Of a stretch of DNA of 64,000 nucleotides, positions 29,645 to 38,059 are shown one piece after another (position 1 is the first letter of the stretch; every line of letters starts with the position of its first letter). The notes under the pieces were generated by a model, which had not been told where the DNA came from, made no database searches, and saw only the letters and a list, made by a program, of their open reading frames with translations. The translations under genes and the position numbers were made by a program. This stretch comes from Nitrospinota bacterium (lineage in GTDB: Bacteria > Nitrospinota_A > UBA7883 > JACRGQ01): the NCBI GenBank assembly GCA_029881495.1, contig JAOUMJ010000003.1:62001-126000 (forward strand), in the 5' to 3' direction.

Positions 29645-30427
29645 TCAATTAACTCTGAAAAGGATGAATGAAATGTCATCCGGGTGAAATCCTTCGTCGC
29701 TGTTCTCCATATTCATTTTTGCCTGCTCCGAAAGATTTTCCCGCACCGATTCCAAATCGCCTTTTCGGATAATTTCGATTATCCTTTCGAGAGTTAAATT
29801 ATCGGTTACTCCGTCGGTTGTAAGTAAAACAGTATCTCGCGCGTCAAGCGTAATAAACGATCCAATTTCTATTCTCATGTCATCCGAGCCGACAATGTTC
29901 GAGACAATATGTTTTTCATCATGGTTTTCCAGTTCGCTACCCGCGATTATTCCCGACTCAAGCGCGTAGCCGACCGGGGAGTGGGCTATTGACTGATATT
30001 TCAGCTTCCCTCTTTGACCTACGATAATTACGCTTGAATCACCAACGTGATACGGTCGAATCTGCTGCCCCTGTATTTCCACCGCTACTACGGTTGAACC
30101 GGCTCCTACCTGAAGTTCTTTGATCCTTTCATTGGATTTTTCAATGGCTTCAAGTATTGCTCCCCGCAAATCCTCTTCTCCTTTATGCCCTGCAAGGATC
30201 TCGTTGAACGTTTCAGCGATTATGCGGGCGGCCTTTTCACCGGATGGCCGGCCTCCCATCCCGTCGGCAACAACTAGAACTCCAGTGCCGTCTCCAAGGC
30301 AGAGCATGGCGATACTGTCTTCATTAGGATTGGAGTATCCTGGGGCTCTTTCTGAAAATGCGGATAGACGCCCGCTACAGAATTCCTGATCGTCCAGATT
30401 ATATTTCTCTGCTTCGACTATTATCAT
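29645..30427 (-). CDS. PP2C-type Ser/Thr protein phosphatase
   Basis: A 260-residue soluble PP2C phosphatase. The metal-binding motifs are NEDS near residue 35, VADGMGG near 55, a HVGDSS strand, LTTDGVTD near 205, and HPDDISF at the C terminus. It removes phosphate from Ser/Thr in an Mn/Mg-dependent way. Its ATG is 20 bases after the stop of a small protein kinase gene, so the pair probably forms a reversible phosphorylation switch. Confidence 0.9.
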   Translation of the reverse strand: MIIVEAEKYNLDDQEFCSGRLSAFSERAPGYSNPNEDSIAMLCLGDGTGVLVVADGMGGRPSGEKAARIIAETFNEILAGHKGEEDLRGAILEAIEKSNERIKELQVGAGSTVVAVEIQGQQIRPYHVGDSSVIIVGQRGKLKYQSIAHSPVGYALESGIIAGSELENHDEKHIVSNIVGSDDMRIEIGSFITLDARDTVLLTTDGVTDNLTLERIIEIIRKGDLESVRENLSEQAKMNMENSDEGFHPDDISFILFRVN

Positions 30428-30447
30428 TTCCGCGGTAGTGCCTTTAG

Positions 30448-31191
30448 CTATATCAAACTGTCGAAATTCAAATTTTCCAGGTACACTCTTAATTGTCCCG
30501 CAGTTTTGTATTTTTTCCTAATTATTGAGCGCTTCAAACCGCAAACTACCTGTTTAATTTCCTTTGGAAGTTTTGAATAGATTTTTACGCCGCCGATCGA
30601 TTCATGATAAACCTGCAAAAGATCACACACATCGTCGAGAATATTTTCGGAGGTGGCGTCTTTCCAGTGGAAAAAATCGATCAGCTTCACTCCGAAACTC
30701 AAGCCGTACCGTGTGATTATTATATTATCGGTATGGATGTCGCCGTGAAACTCCTTGAGGCTGTGAATACATTCCACCCCCTTGGCCAGAGCAAGAAGGA
30801 GGTGGAGCGCCTGATATGGATCAAGCCGTTTTTTCGGCTGACTCGTGTAAAATTCGGAGAGCATGACGCCGTCTACATATTCGGAGATCAGGATTGGAAT
30901 CTGCTGACGCTTGAATGTAATCGTCTCCTGCGTGTTGTACTGGATAAGTATCTCGCAATTCCTTAGTTTGTGGAGCTTCTTGGCGTGATAGCGCAGAGTG
31001 CTGTTTCTCAGGTTGCGGTGGGGAAAGAAAAACTTCCCAGCACGCTCGATCCCGGTCTCTATTTCAAGCAGTTTATATACTTCCCCCTCCCATCCCGAAC
31101 CTATGCGATGCACGACCTTGTATTTCTTGGCAAGCACTCGGCCAGGTTTGAATTCAAAGGAACTAATCTTTTCTACTTTCACCACCCGCAA
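30448..31191 (-). CDS. Small Ser/Thr protein kinase-like protein
   Basis: A 247-residue protein with the eukaryote-like kinase motifs and little else. The Gly loop is GSGWEGEVYK near residue 32, the Lys is in RAGKFF, and the catalytic loop is HGDIHTDN (Asp and Asn kept; HRD reads HGD). The metal-binding DFG reads DFF. No membrane segment or sensor domain is present. The first Asp, Asn and second Asp remain, so activity is possible, though the altered loops resemble RIO/ABC1-like and lipopolysaccharide kinases. TTG 31191 is the likely start, with a poor ribosome site. It sits between putA and the PP2C gene on the same strand. Confidence 0.78.
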   Translation of the reverse strand: MRVVKVEKISSFEFKPGRVLAKKYKVVHRIGSGWEGEVYKLLEIETGIERAGKFFFPHRNLRNSTLRYHAKKLHKLRNCEILIQYNTQETITFKRQQIPILISEYVDGVMLSEFYTSQPKKRLDPYQALHLLLALAKGVECIHSLKEFHGDIHTDNIIITRYGLSFGVKLIDFFHWKDATSENILDDVCDLLQVYHESIGGVKIYSKLPKEIKQVVCGLKRSIIRKKYKTAGQLRVYLENLNFDSLI

Positions 31192-31262: not shown

Positions 31263-34247
31263 TTAAATATCGAGGTCGGGAGTGAAACCGCGGCGCATGC
31301 TGTTTTCGGATATCGACCTCGGTTCGACGAAATTCAAGAGGTACCCAGGCCCCCCCGCTTTTGTGCCAAGACCGCTCATCCCGAAGCCTCCGAACGGCTG
31401 GCGATGCACCAGCGCCCCAGTGATCCCGCGATTTATGTACAGGTTCCCCACGCGGAACCTGCTTCTTGCCAGTTCCGTATTTACCGGGCTCCTCGTGAAA
31501 ACTCCACCGGTAAGCATGAACTCGGTTGAGAGCGCGACGTCAATCGCGGTTTCGAAGTCATCTACCACCATCATGGCAACGACAGGGCCGAACAGCTCCT
31601 TCTGCATTAGGGGGTGGTTTTCAGTTTTAACCCTGAAGAGGGCAGGGGGTATGTAATAGCCTCCCTTGGGGAGGAGTTTGCTTTCGCCTATGTATAGCGG
31701 TTCGGCCCCTTCGCCCGGATCGCTGATCACTTCATTAAGACGGACATAGGCCGATTCGTCAACTACAGGACCGAGTTTGCACCCCGGATCCGATGGCGGC
31801 AATATCCGCAAACTCCTGCATGCTTCTATCAGGCGATTGAAAAGCGCATTGTATGTATCTTCACCGACAACTATTGCACGGGAGCAGGCAGAACATTTCT
31901 GTCCGGCATACCCGAACGCACTCTTGATGATTCCAGATACCGCTTCGTCAAGATCTGCGTCATCATCGACGATGATAGCGTTCTTCCCCCCCATTTCGCA
32001 TACGACCCTTTTTATGGTCGGCTGACCTTCGGAGACCTTCGACGCCTTTTCCAGTATCGACAGCCCCACCTCCTTGCTACCGGTAAAGGCTATCTGCGCA
32101 ATGAGCGGATGAGTGACGAGGCTGTCGCCAACCGTTTCACCCCCACCCGGAATGAACTGCACCACCTCGGAAGGGAAGCCTATATCTATCATTCTTGTGT
32201 ATAGCGCGTAAGCTGTTGCGCATGATTTGCCCGACGGTTTCATGATCACGCTATTCCCAGCAACAAGCGGTGCAACGGTCATCCCGCAGAGTATCGCAAC
32301 CGGAAAGTTCCAAGGGGCAACAACCAGCGTTGGGCCGCGCCCTTCGTAGATGAGTTCGTTTATCTCGCCGGCCATGTTCCCCTGTTTTCTTGGAGCCAGT
32401 TCCTTTCTCGCCATCATCGCGTAGTAACGGCAAAAATCTATCGCTTCGGCGACGTCCGCATCCGCCTCGCGCCACGGCTTCCCAACCTCGTATACCTCAA
32501 GCGCCGATATCTCCGCTCGATCTTCATCCAGCCTGTCGGCGAGCTTCTCAAGGAGTGTTGCGCGCTCTTCAATATCGGAATCTCGCCATGGCGCCCATGA
32601 AGCCATCGCCGTGTTCGCCGCCTTCTCAACCTCCTCGATGTTTGGAATCACAACTTCTGTAACGGCAGTTTCATAATCTGCGGGTGAAAAATGGAAAAAT
32701 GATTCTCCGTCGAGTCTGTTCTTTCCGTTAACCACTACCGGAACTTTTATAGGGAGATGCTGGAGGGTCTCCTTCATCCACGACGCAAACTCTTCTCGTT
32801 TGTCCCTGATTGTAAAATCAGTGAGAGAGGCGTTTGTGAATTCGGGAGACATTTTTTCGGTTTTCCCGGTAGAGGAGGAGGGGATGGGTCTTGCCAGGAG
32901 TTTTTCCCGATCCATTTTCTCGTGATAACTCATGCGAAGGAACCCGGCATTTGAGGTGTTTTCGAGTATGCGCCGTACAAGATACCCGATCCCCGGCAAC
33001 ATCTCCCCTATGGGGGCGTATAGCCGAATCCTTTTCCCCATTTTCCGCAAAGCCTTCTGCTCCGGTTCGGCCATACCATAGATCATCTGAACTTCATAGG
33101 CATCTTCCGGCAGGTTCTTACTTTTGGCATATGCCATGGCGTGAAGGAGCGTGCGGTGGTTGTGGCTTGCGAATGCCGTGGAGATAAGATCGGGAAATTC
33201 CAATAATTTTTCGGTCAGGCGTTCATAGTTTGCGTCCGTTGCGCCCTTTTCAGTAAATACAGGAACCTTATATCCTAGTTGTCTGGCATGGACTACTTCG
33301 TAATCCCAATAAGCGCCTTTAACAAGCCTTACCGTGAGCGGCGTACCTCTTACACGAGCAAGGGTGAAAAGCCTCTCAACATCAGCTTCGGCGGCCTTCA
33401 GGTATGCCTGCACCACAATACCGATGTGAGGCCACCCCTTCATATCGGGATGAGCAAGTATCTCCTCGAGAAGAGTATAGGTAATGTCATGATACTCCCA
33501 CTGCTCGAGGTCAATGTTTACAAATACGTTTTTCTCCCTCGCTTTTAGAAAAATGGGGAGAGCCATCTCCTTTAACCTGGAAACGCTGCCGGCAAGGTCG
33601 GCGCTTTCAAGCTGGGAATCAAGCGCCGAAATTTTCAGCGATATGTTCGCGACAGGTATCGAACCGGACGAATTGCGTGATAACAAGCTGTTCTCCGACC
33701 ATTTTCCCACACTGGCGGAGAGCTTTTCAATCAATTCAAGATAGCGGGCCTTATAAATTTCAGCCTCAACCTGGCTTACCGTGGCTTCTCCAAGGAGATC
33801 TGCCGTACACGCAAGACCATCCTTGTAAAGTTTACCCATTACCTTCAGGGCGCTCTCTGGATCTTTTCCGATAATAAATCTTTCGGCAAATTCGAGGATC
33901 CCTTTTTTTATGGCAATCGAGCCGATACCGGAAGTGAGAGGGGAGGAGGCCGCCTTCATGGCAAAATCAAGAATCCCTGAAAACTCGCGCCCTTTCTTCA
34001 GGAAATATTCGTCGATATGCTTCGAGATTTTATCAGAACTGTTCAGCGCCGGAAGGACATCAATGAACCTCAGGAGGTCTACCTTGAAATCGGGCTCGTT
34101 CATCGCCCAGTCGAAGAGTCTCCCTTGCCAGAATGATTTATCGAAGAGACCCGGCACGCCCCCCTCCAACCGGTCATAGAACTCGGTTCCAATGTTTTGG
34201 ATTTCAGCTTCCAGGTCAGAAATATTCTCCAAGATTCTTTCTCCCAT
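31263..34247 (-). CDS. putA: Bifunctional proline dehydrogenase / glutamate-semialdehyde dehydrogenase
   Basis: A 994-residue enzyme. The N-terminal half is the FAD proline dehydrogenase barrel, with DLEQWEYHD, RLVKGAYWD and the C-terminal helix motif RRILENTSN. The second half is the P5C aldehyde dehydrogenase, with APWNFPVA, CEMGGKNA and the catalytic Cys in GQKCSACSRA. It converts proline to glutamate in two steps and passes electrons to quinone. The DNA-binding domain of E. coli PutA is absent. The start is taken as ATG 34247; the frame is open to 34352. The kinase and phosphatase genes follow 71 bases downstream on the same strand. Confidence 0.93.
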   Translation of the reverse strand: MGERILENISDLEAEIQNIGTEFYDRLEGGVPGLFDKSFWQGRLFDWAMNEPDFKVDLLRFIDVLPALNSSDKISKHIDEYFLKKGREFSGILDFAMKAASSPLTSGIGSIAIKKGILEFAERFIIGKDPESALKVMGKLYKDGLACTADLLGEATVSQVEAEIYKARYLELIEKLSASVGKWSENSLLSRNSSGSIPVANISLKISALDSQLESADLAGSVSRLKEMALPIFLKAREKNVFVNIDLEQWEYHDITYTLLEEILAHPDMKGWPHIGIVVQAYLKAAEADVERLFTLARVRGTPLTVRLVKGAYWDYEVVHARQLGYKVPVFTEKGATDANYERLTEKLLEFPDLISTAFASHNHRTLLHAMAYAKSKNLPEDAYEVQMIYGMAEPEQKALRKMGKRIRLYAPIGEMLPGIGYLVRRILENTSNAGFLRMSYHEKMDREKLLARPIPSSSTGKTEKMSPEFTNASLTDFTIRDKREEFASWMKETLQHLPIKVPVVVNGKNRLDGESFFHFSPADYETAVTEVVIPNIEEVEKAANTAMASWAPWRDSDIEERATLLEKLADRLDEDRAEISALEVYEVGKPWREADADVAEAIDFCRYYAMMARKELAPRKQGNMAGEINELIYEGRGPTLVVAPWNFPVAILCGMTVAPLVAGNSVIMKPSGKSCATAYALYTRMIDIGFPSEVVQFIPGGGETVGDSLVTHPLIAQIAFTGSKEVGLSILEKASKVSEGQPTIKRVVCEMGGKNAIIVDDDADLDEAVSGIIKSAFGYAGQKCSACSRAIVVGEDTYNALFNRLIEACRSLRILPPSDPGCKLGPVVDESAYVRLNEVISDPGEGAEPLYIGESKLLPKGGYYIPPALFRVKTENHPLMQKELFGPVVAMMVVDDFETAIDVALSTEFMLTGGVFTRSPVNTELARSRFRVGNLYINRGITGALVHRQPFGGFGMSGLGTKAGGPGYLLNFVEPRSISENSMRRGFTPDLDI

Positions 34248-34449
34248 AGCTACCACCAGCTCTATTATAGGACTCAGGTCTATTATATTCGGTTTTTCAA
34301 GTTTATGGGTTGAACATGGGACTCGATGACTTTCCCTGCGCAAAGAATGCAAAGAATTATATAATCTATTTTGACGGGCACGGTTTACAACTTGCCCCCT
34401 GTTCTTGCGTCTGTTTAGAAACGTCCCATATAAAAGCGAGATATTAGAA

Positions 34450-36204
34450 ATGTTTTCAATTCGAAGGATCTACGATGCGGTCCTCCCAGTTAACCAGGAG
34501 GCGATACGGCAGGCCGAGGAAATAATACTGAACCGGTTTGCCGCTCTCGAAGTATCGGACGTAGATGGATTGTCCAAAAAGCTTATGAACCCGTTCAAGC
34601 AGAAATTTAGAACGATCCTCTATGTAGCGGAGAGGCCTCAGAAGGCGCAGGTAATCGGCGCGGCAATACTGATGCACGATCCCGATCTCAATTTCTGCTA
34701 CCTCGATTTTCTTGCTACCGCAAAAGGTGTTTCAAGCCGCGGGGTAGGGGGCGCCCTTTACGAATATGTGAGGGATGAGGCTCGCGATTTCCAGGCGAAA
34801 GGACTTTTCTACGAATGTCTTCCCGATTCCGAGCAAGAGTGCCCGAAACCAGAAGGGATTTACAAGGAAAATGTATCACGGCTCCGCTTTTACGAAAGAT
34901 ATGGAGCGCTCCCGATTGCCAACACCCAATACCAGCTACCGCTTAAACCGGGCGATACATGCATGCCTTTCCTGGTATATGACGGGTTGATGCCTGGAAA
35001 GGTTCTTAGGAAGGATTACGCAAAGGCGGCGGTTAAGGCAATTCTAGAAAGAAAATACGGCAAGGTCTGCCCTGCTGGATATATCGAAACAGTAGTTAAC
35101 TCATTCAAGGACGATCCGGTCAAACTGCGTGAACCCCGTTACAATAAAAAGTCCGCAAGCGAAGACAGCTCCAGGAAGATAGGCCAGACCATAAGAGAGC
35201 CGATAATGCTTGTAGTGAACGACAAGCACGATATCCATCATATCAAGGAGCGCGGCTACGTCGAATCTCCGGTGAGGATATCGAATATACTAGATGAAAT
35301 ATCGAAAACAGGGCTGTTCAAAAGGGTGCCGCCGAAAGATTTTCCCGAAAAGCATATTAAATATGTTCATGAAGCCGGGTTTGTGGAATACATCAAAAAG
35401 GTATGCGCATCCCTGCCGGAAAAAAAATCGGTATACCCGTATGTATTCCCGATTCGAAACGCAACCCGACCGCCGAAGGAACTTTCCGTTAGGGCAGGGT
35501 ACTACTGCATAGATACCTTCACCCCTATCAACCGTAACGCGTATACTGCGGCCAAAAGAGGGGTCAACTGCACGCTTACGGCGGCAGACTATCTATTGCG
35601 GGGAGAAGTTTTGTCATACGCCCTGGTGAGACCCCCCGGACATCACGCGGAAAGAAAATTGTTCGGAGGTTTCTGCTACTTCAATAACGCGGCAATAGCG
35701 GCGAGGTACCTGAGCAGGTACGGGAAGATCGCCATCCTCGATATCGATTACCATCATGGAAATGGCCAACAGCAGATATTTTTCGACCAAAACGACGTCC
35801 TGACCGTCTCTATTCACGGTCACCCCAATCACGCCTACCCATATTTCTCCGGGTTTGCATCGGAAAAAGGGGAGGGGCCGGGCAAAGGATTCAATCTCAA
35901 CTTCGCATTGGGAGAGAATATCAACGCGGAGGAGTACCGCCGTACACTGAAAGACGCTTTGAACAGAATTCAAAAGTTCCAGCCGATGTTCCTGATAGTC
36001 TGCCTCGGTTTCGATACAGCCAAGGGGGATCCAACCGGCTCATGGAATCTCACCAGCCGCGATTTTTATTTAAACGGCAGAGTAATCGGTAAATTGGGGA
36101 TCAGAACTCTGATAGTGCAGGAAGGGGGGTACAAAACAAAAACCATCGGTATCAATGCAAGGAACTTTTTCACGGGACTGCATGAAGGTTATAAGGAAGT
36201 CTAG
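34450..36204 (+). CDS. GNAT acetyltransferase fused to HDAC-family deacetylase
   Basis: A 584-residue two-domain protein. Residues about 1-190 are GNAT-like, with a YLDFLATAKGVSSRGVGGAL strand and acetyl-CoA loop. Residues about 250-580 are an arginase-fold deacetylase of the HDAC/acetylpolyamine amidohydrolase family: RPPGHHAE (the His pair), DIDYHHGNGQ (zinc ligands), CLGFDTAKGDPTG (Asp ligand) and QEGGY. One polypeptide would thus both add and remove acetyl groups, on lysines or polyamines. ATG 34450 is the likely start; an in-frame TTG lies at 34405. It is divergent from putA. The substrate is unknown. Confidence 0.87.
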   Translation: MFSIRRIYDAVLPVNQEAIRQAEEIILNRFAALEVSDVDGLSKKLMNPFKQKFRTILYVAERPQKAQVIGAAILMHDPDLNFCYLDFLATAKGVSSRGVGGALYEYVRDEARDFQAKGLFYECLPDSEQECPKPEGIYKENVSRLRFYERYGALPIANTQYQLPLKPGDTCMPFLVYDGLMPGKVLRKDYAKAAVKAILERKYGKVCPAGYIETVVNSFKDDPVKLREPRYNKKSASEDSSRKIGQTIREPIMLVVNDKHDIHHIKERGYVESPVRISNILDEISKTGLFKRVPPKDFPEKHIKYVHEAGFVEYIKKVCASLPEKKSVYPYVFPIRNATRPPKELSVRAGYYCIDTFTPINRNAYTAAKRGVNCTLTAADYLLRGEVLSYALVRPPGHHAERKLFGGFCYFNNAAIAARYLSRYGKIAILDIDYHHGNGQQQIFFDQNDVLTVSIHGHPNHAYPYFSGFASEKGEGPGKGFNLNFALGENINAEEYRRTLKDALNRIQKFQPMFLIVCLGFDTAKGDPTGSWNLTSRDFYLNGRVIGKLGIRTLIVQEGGYKTKTIGINARNFFTGLHEGYKEV

Positions 36205-36349: not shown

Positions 36350-37165
36350 TTGGTGGCCTTCAGCAGTGACAGCAATCAAAACTCCTCATGGTGGGGTGAA
36401 TATCGCATTCCGCTAAATCAGCTGAAGCAGATATCCATCGGATCGCTTTCGGTATACCTTCAGCGGTATGAAAACGAATGGCAGGCTGTTCACAGCCTTA
36501 TGAACATGGAGGAGGAGAAAAACAGCATTCAATGCGAATTCGCCGATGCCGATACGCTCCCCCTTGGAGCGGAAATTGAGCGAAAGGCATTTGCGCGGAC
36601 GACCGAAACGGTTCGGATCAGACCGATGATCCCTCCCAGACCGATTGTCAGCAGTCCGGTCTCCCCGTTCAAGGTACCGCCAAAACAGTCGATCACCATA
36701 TTCATAAGTCTCCCGGTTTGGGTACGTTTCGAAGTAGGGCATCCCCCCGTCACATTGATAGAGACGTGGACGCAAAAACTTTCCGATACCTGGTTTGGAC
36801 CATCATCGCAGCAGGGTGAGCTCTGCTATGCAAACAAAACATCCTGCTGTCTGAGGCTTGATGATATCGATTTCAAAACCAATCGCGCCATAACGCCCGT
36901 AACCATTCATAACCAGTCGCAGGAAACAATACACCTTAAAAAGATCAGTATGCCGGTAACCAATCTCTCCATTTTCACAAACGAGAAGAAGCAGTTATGG
37001 ACATCCCCGGTAAAGGTCGAGATGCTTAAGAGCGATGAAACTGTAAACGTAAAGATAGAAGAGAAATTCCCGTCATTCGCCGGGAAATCGATAATTCTTG
37101 AAAAACCCAGGAAAGATCTGCAGGAAGGGGCGATGACGCGGGCCATTTCCGCGATCTTCAGCTAG
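36350..37165 (+). CDS. DUF432-like protein paired with MscS
   Basis: A 271-residue soluble-looking protein with no signal peptide or membrane segment. The composition and the block ISIGSLSVYLQRYENEWQ near the start, followed by IFISLPVWVRFEVG, match what I recall of DUF432. The stop is 3 bases before the ATG of an MscS-type channel gene, so the two form an operon and probably a functional pair. A role as a cytoplasmic partner or gate modulator of the channel is inferred. Start TTG 36350 (or GTG 36353) is tentative. Confidence 0.62.
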   Translation: MVAFSSDSNQNSSWWGEYRIPLNQLKQISIGSLSVYLQRYENEWQAVHSLMNMEEEKNSIQCEFADADTLPLGAEIERKAFARTTETVRIRPMIPPRPIVSSPVSPFKVPPKQSITIFISLPVWVRFEVGHPPVTLIETWTQKLSDTWFGPSSQQGELCYANKTSCCLRLDDIDFKTNRAITPVTIHNQSQETIHLKKISMPVTNLSIFTNEKKQLWTSPVKVEMLKSDETVNVKIEEKFPSFAGKSIILEKPRKDLQEGAMTRAISAIFS

Positions 37166-37168
37166 AAT

Positions 37169-38059
37169 ATGGAGAGCATCAATTCGGTACTGGAAACTGT
37201 ATATGCCTACTTGAATGTTGTGGACATCGTTTCCGCGATCCGGGCTTTCCTCCTTCTGTCCGCCGGATACCTCCTCGGTAAATTCGCAAGCCGCTCGCTT
37301 GATGTTACCCTGTCTAAATATTTCGGTGAACACCAGGTAAAACTTGTCAGACGAGCCGTCTATTACACCATATTCCTCCTCTTCTTTATCTCGGCGCTAA
37401 GAGAGATCGGCTTCAGCCTGCAGGTACTGCTCGGAGCGGCCGGTATCTTTTCAGTAGCCATCGGTTTTGCATCACAGACCTCTGTTTCGAACCTTATAAG
37501 CGGTCTTTTCCTGATAGCGGAACGACCGTTCATAATCGGTGATTTGATAAAGGTCGGTAATCAAATCGGCAAAGTGCATTCAATCGACCTCCTTTCCGTA
37601 AAATTGATTACTTTTGATAACCGCTATATCAGGATCCCAAACGAGACCCTTATCAAATCCGAAGTAGTCACGCTTACAAAATACCCTATACGGCGTATTG
37701 ACATGAAGCTGGGTGTTGCCTACAAGGAAAATCTTGAAAAGGTGCGCGATATCTTGAAAGGTATCGCAAATGAAAATCCGCTTTGCCTTGATAATCCAGA
37801 GCCGATATTCATCATTGAAGGCTTCGGTTCATCATCGCTTGAACTTCAGTTCTCATTTTGGGTAAAAAATGAGAATTTCCTAGACCTCCGAAACAGCATG
37901 TATATCGAAATAAAGAAGGTATTCGACAGGGAAGGGATAGAGATTCCGTTCCCGCATATCTCACTTTATTCCGGCTCTGCTACGGAACCTTTCCCGCTGG
38001 AAATGCGCACCGGTGATCCCGGTAGCAAACTTCCGTCAGGAGAGAAAAAGGAGCAGTAG
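37169..38059 (+). CDS. MscS-family mechanosensitive channel
   Basis: A 296-residue membrane protein. Three N-terminal helices include the pore helix LLGAAGIFSVAIGFASQTSVSNLISG, written here as LLGAAGIFSVAIG then FASQT. The cytoplasmic beta domain begins RPFIIGDLIKVGNQIG, and a C-terminal alpha/beta domain ends in EIPFPHISLY. MscS channels open on membrane tension and let solutes out after hypo-osmotic shock. It is coupled to the DUF432 protein upstream by a 3-base gap. The C-terminal 25 residues are low-complexity and charged. Confidence 0.92.
   Translation: MESINSVLETVYAYLNVVDIVSAIRAFLLLSAGYLLGKFASRSLDVTLSKYFGEHQVKLVRRAVYYTIFLLFFISALREIGFSLQVLLGAAGIFSVAIGFASQTSVSNLISGLFLIAERPFIIGDLIKVGNQIGKVHSIDLLSVKLITFDNRYIRIPNETLIKSEVVTLTKYPIRRIDMKLGVAYKENLEKVRDILKGIANENPLCLDNPEPIFIIEGFGSSSLELQFSFWVKNENFLDLRNSMYIEIKKVFDREGIEIPFPHISLYSGSATEPFPLEMRTGDPGSKLPSGEKKEQ

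Follow-up and report, generated by a model that had tools for sequence, protein, structure and literature searches.

A GNAT-deacetylase fusion protein and its genomic link to a KamA/ATP-grasp cassette in bacteria

Closest described systems

Thousands of bacterial HDAC-like proteins are described as uncharacterised in the accessible part of a work on these enzymes, which also assigns the motifs RPPGHH and EGGY to the cluster 4 acetylpolyamine amidohydrolases (APAHs), links Glu106 to the choice of polyamines in bacterial deacylases, and discusses the PIS motif of polyamine enzymes (PMC11532494). The protein considered here is a fusion of an acetyltransferase and a deacetylase from a Nitrospinota bacterium. 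Through its HDAC half, it shares with the bacterial APAHs among the cluster 4 classical deacylases (6phr, 3q9b, and 9gkz) the fold, the zinc-binding and catalytic residues, both motifs, and an equivalent of R95. However, it differs from them in its N-terminal GNAT domain, in the replacement of Glu106 and of PIS, in a frequent Arg or Lys at the equivalent of D163, and in its genomic partners, which are KamA and ATP-grasp enzymes.

A second related system is the pathway of AblA and AblB, whose product, N-epsilon-acetyl-beta-lysine, accumulates under salt; as far as the accessible part of the source goes, the likeness lies in a lysine 2,3-aminomutase followed by an acetyltransferase (PMC12776343). 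By analogy, acetylation of beta-lysine would be the natural reading of an aminomutase paired with an acetyltransferase. Compared with AblA-AblB, the cassette associated with the fusion adds two ATP-grasp ligases and the GNAT-deacetylase, and its GNATs are not named AblB by NCBIfam. In the synthesis of the dipeptide NAGGN, a GNAT-ATP-grasp protein works with an amidotransferase. The logic of a GNAT and an ATP-grasp enzyme for an acetylated peptide solute is similar; however, no amidotransferase is among the recurrent partners listed for the fusion, whose cassette has KamA and the HDAC instead.

No description of the fusion or of the cassette was found among the best matches in the open-licence literature, in which the term "lysine 2,3-aminomutase" is poorly searchable. 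The words "fused," "multi-domain," and "additional domain" are absent from a survey of classical deacylases in bacteria published in 2024, in which GNAT occurs three times and whose accessible part does not treat such a chain. A 2009 survey of ATP-grasp amidoligases might already mention them, so that an earlier description is possible.

The fusion gene, its two halves, and its family

The window, i.e., the whole stretch of 64,000 nucleotides that was analysed, contains the fusion gene at 34450..36204 on the plus strand, as a single open frame of 584 codons that runs uninterrupted from ATG to TAG and is collinear with 83 homologues. The alignment of 84 proteins used throughout comprises the best 80 of a species-genome collection, three from related genomes, and the window protein. 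An alternative TTG start lies 45 bases upstream (34405) and would give 599 aa; the ATG is the likely start because the family alignment begins at this residue, which is M in 74 of the 84 and V or L (GTG/TTG) in nine. Scans for promoters and terminators around the gene returned chance-level results only. A join of two genes by frameshift or assembly error was also considered; it is ruled out by the 83 collinear homologues from other genomes and further contradicted by matches to the GNAT half that lie within ORFs of 577-771 aa in 36 of 37 genomes.

As the earlier note had proposed, Pfam, the alignment, and the structural models place a GNAT and an HDAC domain in one chain of 584 residues. The GNAT domain (34450..35004, plus strand, approximately residues 1-185) is supported by all three. 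It is followed by a linker (35005..35199, approximately residues 186-250), for which the AlphaFold2 models predict helices at 188-203 and 211-217 and then a low-confidence segment at 234-246, and by an HDAC/acetylpolyamine amidohydrolase-like domain (35200..36201, approximately residues 251-584) that is recognised by Pfam, phmmer, Foldseek, and the alignment. The AlphaFold2 model of the full chain (pLDDT 82.0) contains two folded units, whose relative placement is unreliable at a pTM of 0.59. The NCBIfam scan of the protein gave zero matches at E ≤ 1.

In the GNAT half, Pfam Acetyltransf_1 matches residues 56-126 with 22.7 bits (cut-off 20.7), and Acetyltransf_7 scores 22.9 bits, under its cut-off of 27. 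A model of residues 1-235 alone (pLDDT 88.5, pTM 0.87) confirms the GNAT fold, and the domain shares with the superfamily the acetyl-CoA glycines and Tyr148. The tandem GNAT 2wpx (Z 15.6, rmsd 2.8, 168 aligned residues), Gcn5, and RimI lie within 1 Z of each other as structural matches, identity is at most 19% among the 50 structural matches listed, and a PDB sequence search with this half returned weak profile matches only (best E 0.014); thus, no subfamily can be named. The acetyl-CoA loop of GNATs follows the consensus Q/R-x-x-G-x-G/A. At its first place (position 95), the window protein has S, and 61 of the 84 proteins have T, A, or S, the commonest residues there; both glycines (G98 and G100) and E122 are present in 84 of 84 and Y148 in 83 of 84. 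The loss of the usual Gln or Arg would suit a chain with one catalytic half only, in which the GNAT half acts as an acetyl-CoA sensor gating the deacetylase; the conservation of the two glycines, Glu122, and Tyr148 argues against such a sensor, which is considered very improbable.

The HDAC half is matched by Pfam Hist_deacetyl over residues 271-575 with 253.8 bits (cut-off 27.9), and its closest solved relatives are acetylpolyamine amidohydrolases both by phmmer (E 1.2e-69 to 6phr) and by Foldseek with the HDAC unit of the model (E 1.4e-26 and 37% identity to 6pi8). The expected His and Asp residues, pointed out earlier in the window protein, are a property of the whole family: H398, H399, D431, D433, H435, D522, and Y561 are invariant in 84 of 84 aligned proteins, and the cluster 4 APAH set of zinc ligands, catalytic His-His, and Tyr (H398, H399, D433, H435, D522, and Y561) is complete. 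The RPPGHH (394-399) and EGGY (558-561) motifs are likewise found in 84 of 84 fusions. The position of Glu106, which forms the polyamine salt bridge in the Mycoplana-type enzyme, is occupied by S346 here and by P, S, A, or T in 82 of 84 fusions, with E in one, and the PIS motif (290-292 of APAH) is replaced by PTG (528-530) in all 84. Glu117 of APAH has a functional role; the residue aligned to it is F357 in 84 of 84. The R95-D163 pair is the salt bridge of the head-to-head APAH dimer, and the equivalent of D163 is K403, with R or K in 62 of the 84. Judged by the accessible part of PMC11532494, the EGGY and RPP motifs would fit acetyl rather than longer acyl groups.

These residues bear on both targets named in the earlier note, i.e., polyamines and one partner protein. 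A polyamine acetylation-deacetylation cycle would be in keeping with the relatedness to APAHs. However, the replacement of both Glu106 and PIS weakens polyamines as substrates, and it does no more than weaken them, since PsApaH, with His at position 106, is still an active polyamine deacetylase in the accessible part of PMC11532494. Moreover, no polyamine enzyme is among the 25 listed of 121 neighbour families, and the cycle is considered improbable. The fusion might instead write and erase acetyl-lysine on proteins and thereby control the acetylation of one partner: Gcn5/PCAF and RimI are among the structures that the GNAT model resembles, along with small-molecule GNATs, and the accessible part of the same source reports deacetylation of some peptides and of a protein by bacterial APAHs that have been characterised (PMC11532494). 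Against this, part of the L2 loop, which narrows the active site of APAHs, can be recognised, with R336, the equivalent of Arg95 in this loop, in 84 of 84 fusions, and the recurrent partners, KamA and the two ATP-grasp enzymes, point to small-molecule biosynthesis; action on proteins is thus judged unlikely. Separately, the window genome encodes a free-standing HDAC family protein (contig C17:60570-61430; Pfam 312.5 bits), which is 34% identical to part of the HDAC half of the fusion.

The phylogenetic distribution, a check put forward earlier, shows a family spread across many bacterial phyla. In the species-genome collection, 435 stretches encode relatives at E ≤ 1e-3; the best 80 of these are all fusions, with matches that start at residue 1 and end at 569-584 (in one case 7 to 580), and belong by their titles to Desulfobacterota, Planctomycetota, Chloroflexota, Calditrichota, KSB1, Acidobacteriota, Bacteroidota, and others. 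Among 97 genomes related to that of the window, three further full-length fusions were found, with 54-56% identity and all in distant families, and the fusion was not found in ten other genomes of the window genome's own family. A sample of 395 genomes of one phylum (that of G046) contains the GNAT half in 37. A free-standing GNAT half was rejected, as the sole short match (G449, profile positions 1-103) ends at the last base of its contig; in the other 36 ORFs, the HDAC half was confirmed by reading in 24 and is suggested by ORF length in 12. The earlier description of the arrangement as unusual is therefore only partly right: the union of the two domains in one chain is real, and it is widespread. 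The protein tree needs 24 label changes for 10 phylum groups, where 9 is the minimum possible; it is not cleanly sorted by phylum, which is consistent with transfer but is no proof of it, and some bins are mixed.

The cassette and other neighbours

Clustering of the flanking ORFs identified as recurrent same-strand neighbours of the fusion KamA, a lysine 2,3-aminomutase-like radical SAM protein, two D-Ala-D-Ala-ligase-like ATP-grasp proteins, and a GNAT. Within the fetched flanks, at least one cassette ATP-grasp gene lies near the fusion in 62 of 84 loci and kamA in 54; neither is present in 22 loci, and many contigs end early. In Desulfofustis glycolicus DSM 9705 (L088), the whole cassette adjoins the fusion, and 18 of the 84 proteins carry the cassette GNAT fused at their C-terminal end, resulting in a GNAT-HDAC-GNAT chain. 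The genome of the window has a complete cassette on contig C5 (approximately C5:97131-103457), unlinked to the fusion on C3, in which a sigma-54 response regulator (C5:97131-98540) is followed by kamA (C5:99067-100344), ATP-grasp 1 (C5:100839-101846), ATP-grasp 2 (C5:101871-102884), and the cassette GNAT (C5:102888-103457). A response regulator of the same kind precedes the cassette in G047.

Such sigma-54 response regulators occur near the KamA/ATP-grasp cassette in several genomes, with or without the fusion, namely in L120 (5132-6541), L123 (12259-13689), L134, L144, L145, L149, L158, L184, L187, L188, L193, and L194. The second ATP-grasp protein and the cassette GNAT form one ORF of 510-600 aa in L139, L149, L171, L175, L182, and L195, and in G403 (L200, 60-4604) two kamA-like ORFs flank the fusion, with the ATP-grasp pair on another contig (L179). 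Adjoining the cassette of the window genome (L120, 11474-15931 on C5), a 717-aa protein combines a D-Ala-D-Ala-ligase-like ATP-grasp domain with an extended C-terminal region that Pfam does not match at E 0.001; next come a gamma-glutamyltranspeptidase and a member of the N-formylglutamate amidohydrolase family, and these three may belong to a second peptide pathway.

All 83 KamA sequences aligned to 2a5h, some of which were fetched twice, retain the residues that correspond to Asp293 and Asp330 along with the three cluster cysteines. In clostridial lysine 2,3-aminomutase, these two aspartates bind the side-chain amine of lysine, and their retention makes beta-lysine the likely product. The KamA proteins of L088 and L006 both pass the KamA family model TIGR00238 and both score below the cut-off (525.4) of the NCBIfam equivalog TIGR03820, with 508.6 and 433.4 bits, respectively. 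The resemblance of the ATP-grasp pair to D-Ala-D-Ala ligases, their nearest relatives, suggests an amide bond at a carboxyl group. NCBIfam presumably includes a model of the AblB acetyltransferase, and none appeared among the matches of the cassette GNAT or of the fusion; the NAGGN synthetase model TIGR03103 gave the cassette GNAT 14 bits against a cut-off of 569 (E 0.014).

The co-occurrence of the fusion and the cassette was examined in the 395 genomes of one phylum with a profile of the cassette ATP-grasp protein at E ≤ 1e-50. It matches 139 genomes, namely 37 of the 37 with the GNAT half against 102 of the 358 without it (Fisher p 4.8e-19, kinship ignored); at 300 bits or more, the figures are 28 of 37 against 44 of 358 (p 4.9e-16, kinship ignored). 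The match is weak, at 203-294 bits, in nine of the 37, and the cassettes there may thus make something else. Reading of the DNA in all 37 revealed both ATP-grasp genes in every genome and kamA in the same stretch in 34; of the remaining genomes, G403 carries it on a different contig, next to the fusion, the stretch of G373 ends at a contig end, and kamA is absent from the 16 kb read in G383. The fusion lies inside the stretch read around the cassette in 15 of the 37 and outside it in 22. One stretch was read for each of 20 of the 102 ATP-grasp genomes without a GNAT half, and all four cassette genes were found in 16; one or more are missing from the stretches read in L134, L140, L143, and L148. 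Among the 97 relatives, the profile (E ≤ 1e-40) matches 4 of 4 genomes with the full-length fusion, two of which supplied rows of the profile, against 8 of 93 others. A 24,479-aa open frame in G125 was set aside; the DNA read there contains 10,001 consecutive N.

In both samples, every genome with the fusion also has the cassette ligases, whereas the ligases also occur without the fusion. The genomic link of the fusion to the cassette is well supported, although the 102 genomes with an ATP-grasp match and no GNAT half indicate that it is not essential to the pathway. The same counts bear on the main alternative to an acetyl-state role, in which acetyl would be a transient protecting group: the GNAT half would mask one amine of either lysine or beta-lysine, which would let the ATP-grasp ligases couple the other groups correctly, and the HDAC half would unmask the finished peptide. 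The common position of the two ligases between kamA and the acetyl enzymes, the presence of both halves on one chain, and the third acetyl domain in GNAT-HDAC-GNAT proteins speak for such masking; however, with 102 of 139 ATP-grasp genomes lacking a GNAT-half match, the ligases usually occur without this eraser, and the alternative is possible but doubtful.

In the window, the fusion is flanked by a divergent putA-like proline/P5C dehydrogenase gene (31263..34352, minus strand; Pfam and NCBIfam), a DUF432-like gene (36350..37165, plus strand), and a gene for an MscS-type mechanosensitive channel (37169..38059, plus strand; Pfam), as the earlier note had stated, with a weak match for DUF432 (Pfam 22.0 bits, cut-off 21). 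Beyond putA, the minus strand carries a PP2C-type phosphatase gene together with a protein-kinase-like one (29645-31191). No putA cluster is among the recurrent neighbours listed or the 25 listed of 121 neighbour families, and DUF432 was not found in the ORFs of the other 83 fusion loci. MscS ORFs occur in seven other loci and lie within 2 kb of the fusion in six of them, a zone that makes up 28% of the flanking sequence (p 0.0025); this proximity was noticed first and tested after, on small numbers. For the neighbour survey, 180 flanking ORFs were selected, of which 109 passed filters of length, distance (1.5 kb), contig end, and total size that left out the window and L004-L006; by hand, one L088 ORF was dropped and one L043 ORF was swapped for the MscS ORF of that locus, leaving 108 to be scanned. 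The most frequent families were AhpC/TSA (7) and Redoxin (6), followed by MscS, NFACT-R_2, and ThiI (4 each, at most one MscS being owed to the swap).

Proposed function and significance

The cassette probably makes a small molecule from beta-lysine, and the fusion is more likely to tune this molecule than to act on proteins or polyamines. We propose, with a probability of about one half, that the fusion writes and erases acetyl on a beta-lysine compound of the KamA/ATP-grasp cassette, most likely a compatible solute. The fusion would then be the optional fifth enzyme of a conserved small-molecule cassette, in which KamA would convert lysine to beta-lysine and the two ATP-grasp enzymes would form amide bonds at carboxyl groups. 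With acetyl-CoA as the donor, the GNAT half may acetylate an amine of either beta-lysine or a beta-lysyl peptide, and the HDAC half, which belongs to the acetylpolyamine deacetylase type of amidohydrolases, may hydrolyse that amide again, such that one chain could fill or empty the pool of an acetylated beta-lysine compound. This compound would most likely serve as a compatible solute, comparable to N-epsilon-acetyl-beta-lysine or to the dipeptide NAGGN. For the fusion, catalytic activity in each half, its substrate, its direction, and an osmotic role are all inferred.

The proposal is based on the ATP-grasp and kamA genes near the fusion, the co-occurrence across genomes, the GNAT-HDAC-GNAT fusions, the lysine-type residues of KamA, and the proximity of MscS, which, in the window and six other loci, hints at a solute role. 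Weighed against it are the 22 loci with neither kamA nor ATP-grasp genes in the fetched flanks, the 22 genomes in which the fusion lies outside the stretch read around the cassette, the KamA scores under the TIGR03820 cut-off, and a cassette GNAT that NCBIfam does not name AblB. In the simplest account, the fusion would control the acetylation state of the cassette product.

More tentatively, the five enzymes (KamA, two ATP-grasp proteins, GNAT, and GNAT-HDAC) might constitute an undescribed pathway across many bacterial phyla, with an acetylated beta-lysine peptide as the compatible solute and the fusion as a single-chain valve, which would acetylate to store and deacetylate to recycle; an HDAC fold would then act on a substrate that is neither protein nor polyamine.

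The constant pairing of GNAT and HDAC in one chain, together with its link to a KamA/ATP-grasp cassette, offers a concrete class of metabolites to test and could lead to a beta-lysine compound so far overlooked in Desulfobacterota, Planctomycetota, and Dehalococcoidia. It would also provide a natural case of acetyl reactions in opposite directions within one chain, perhaps with a shared small-molecule substrate.
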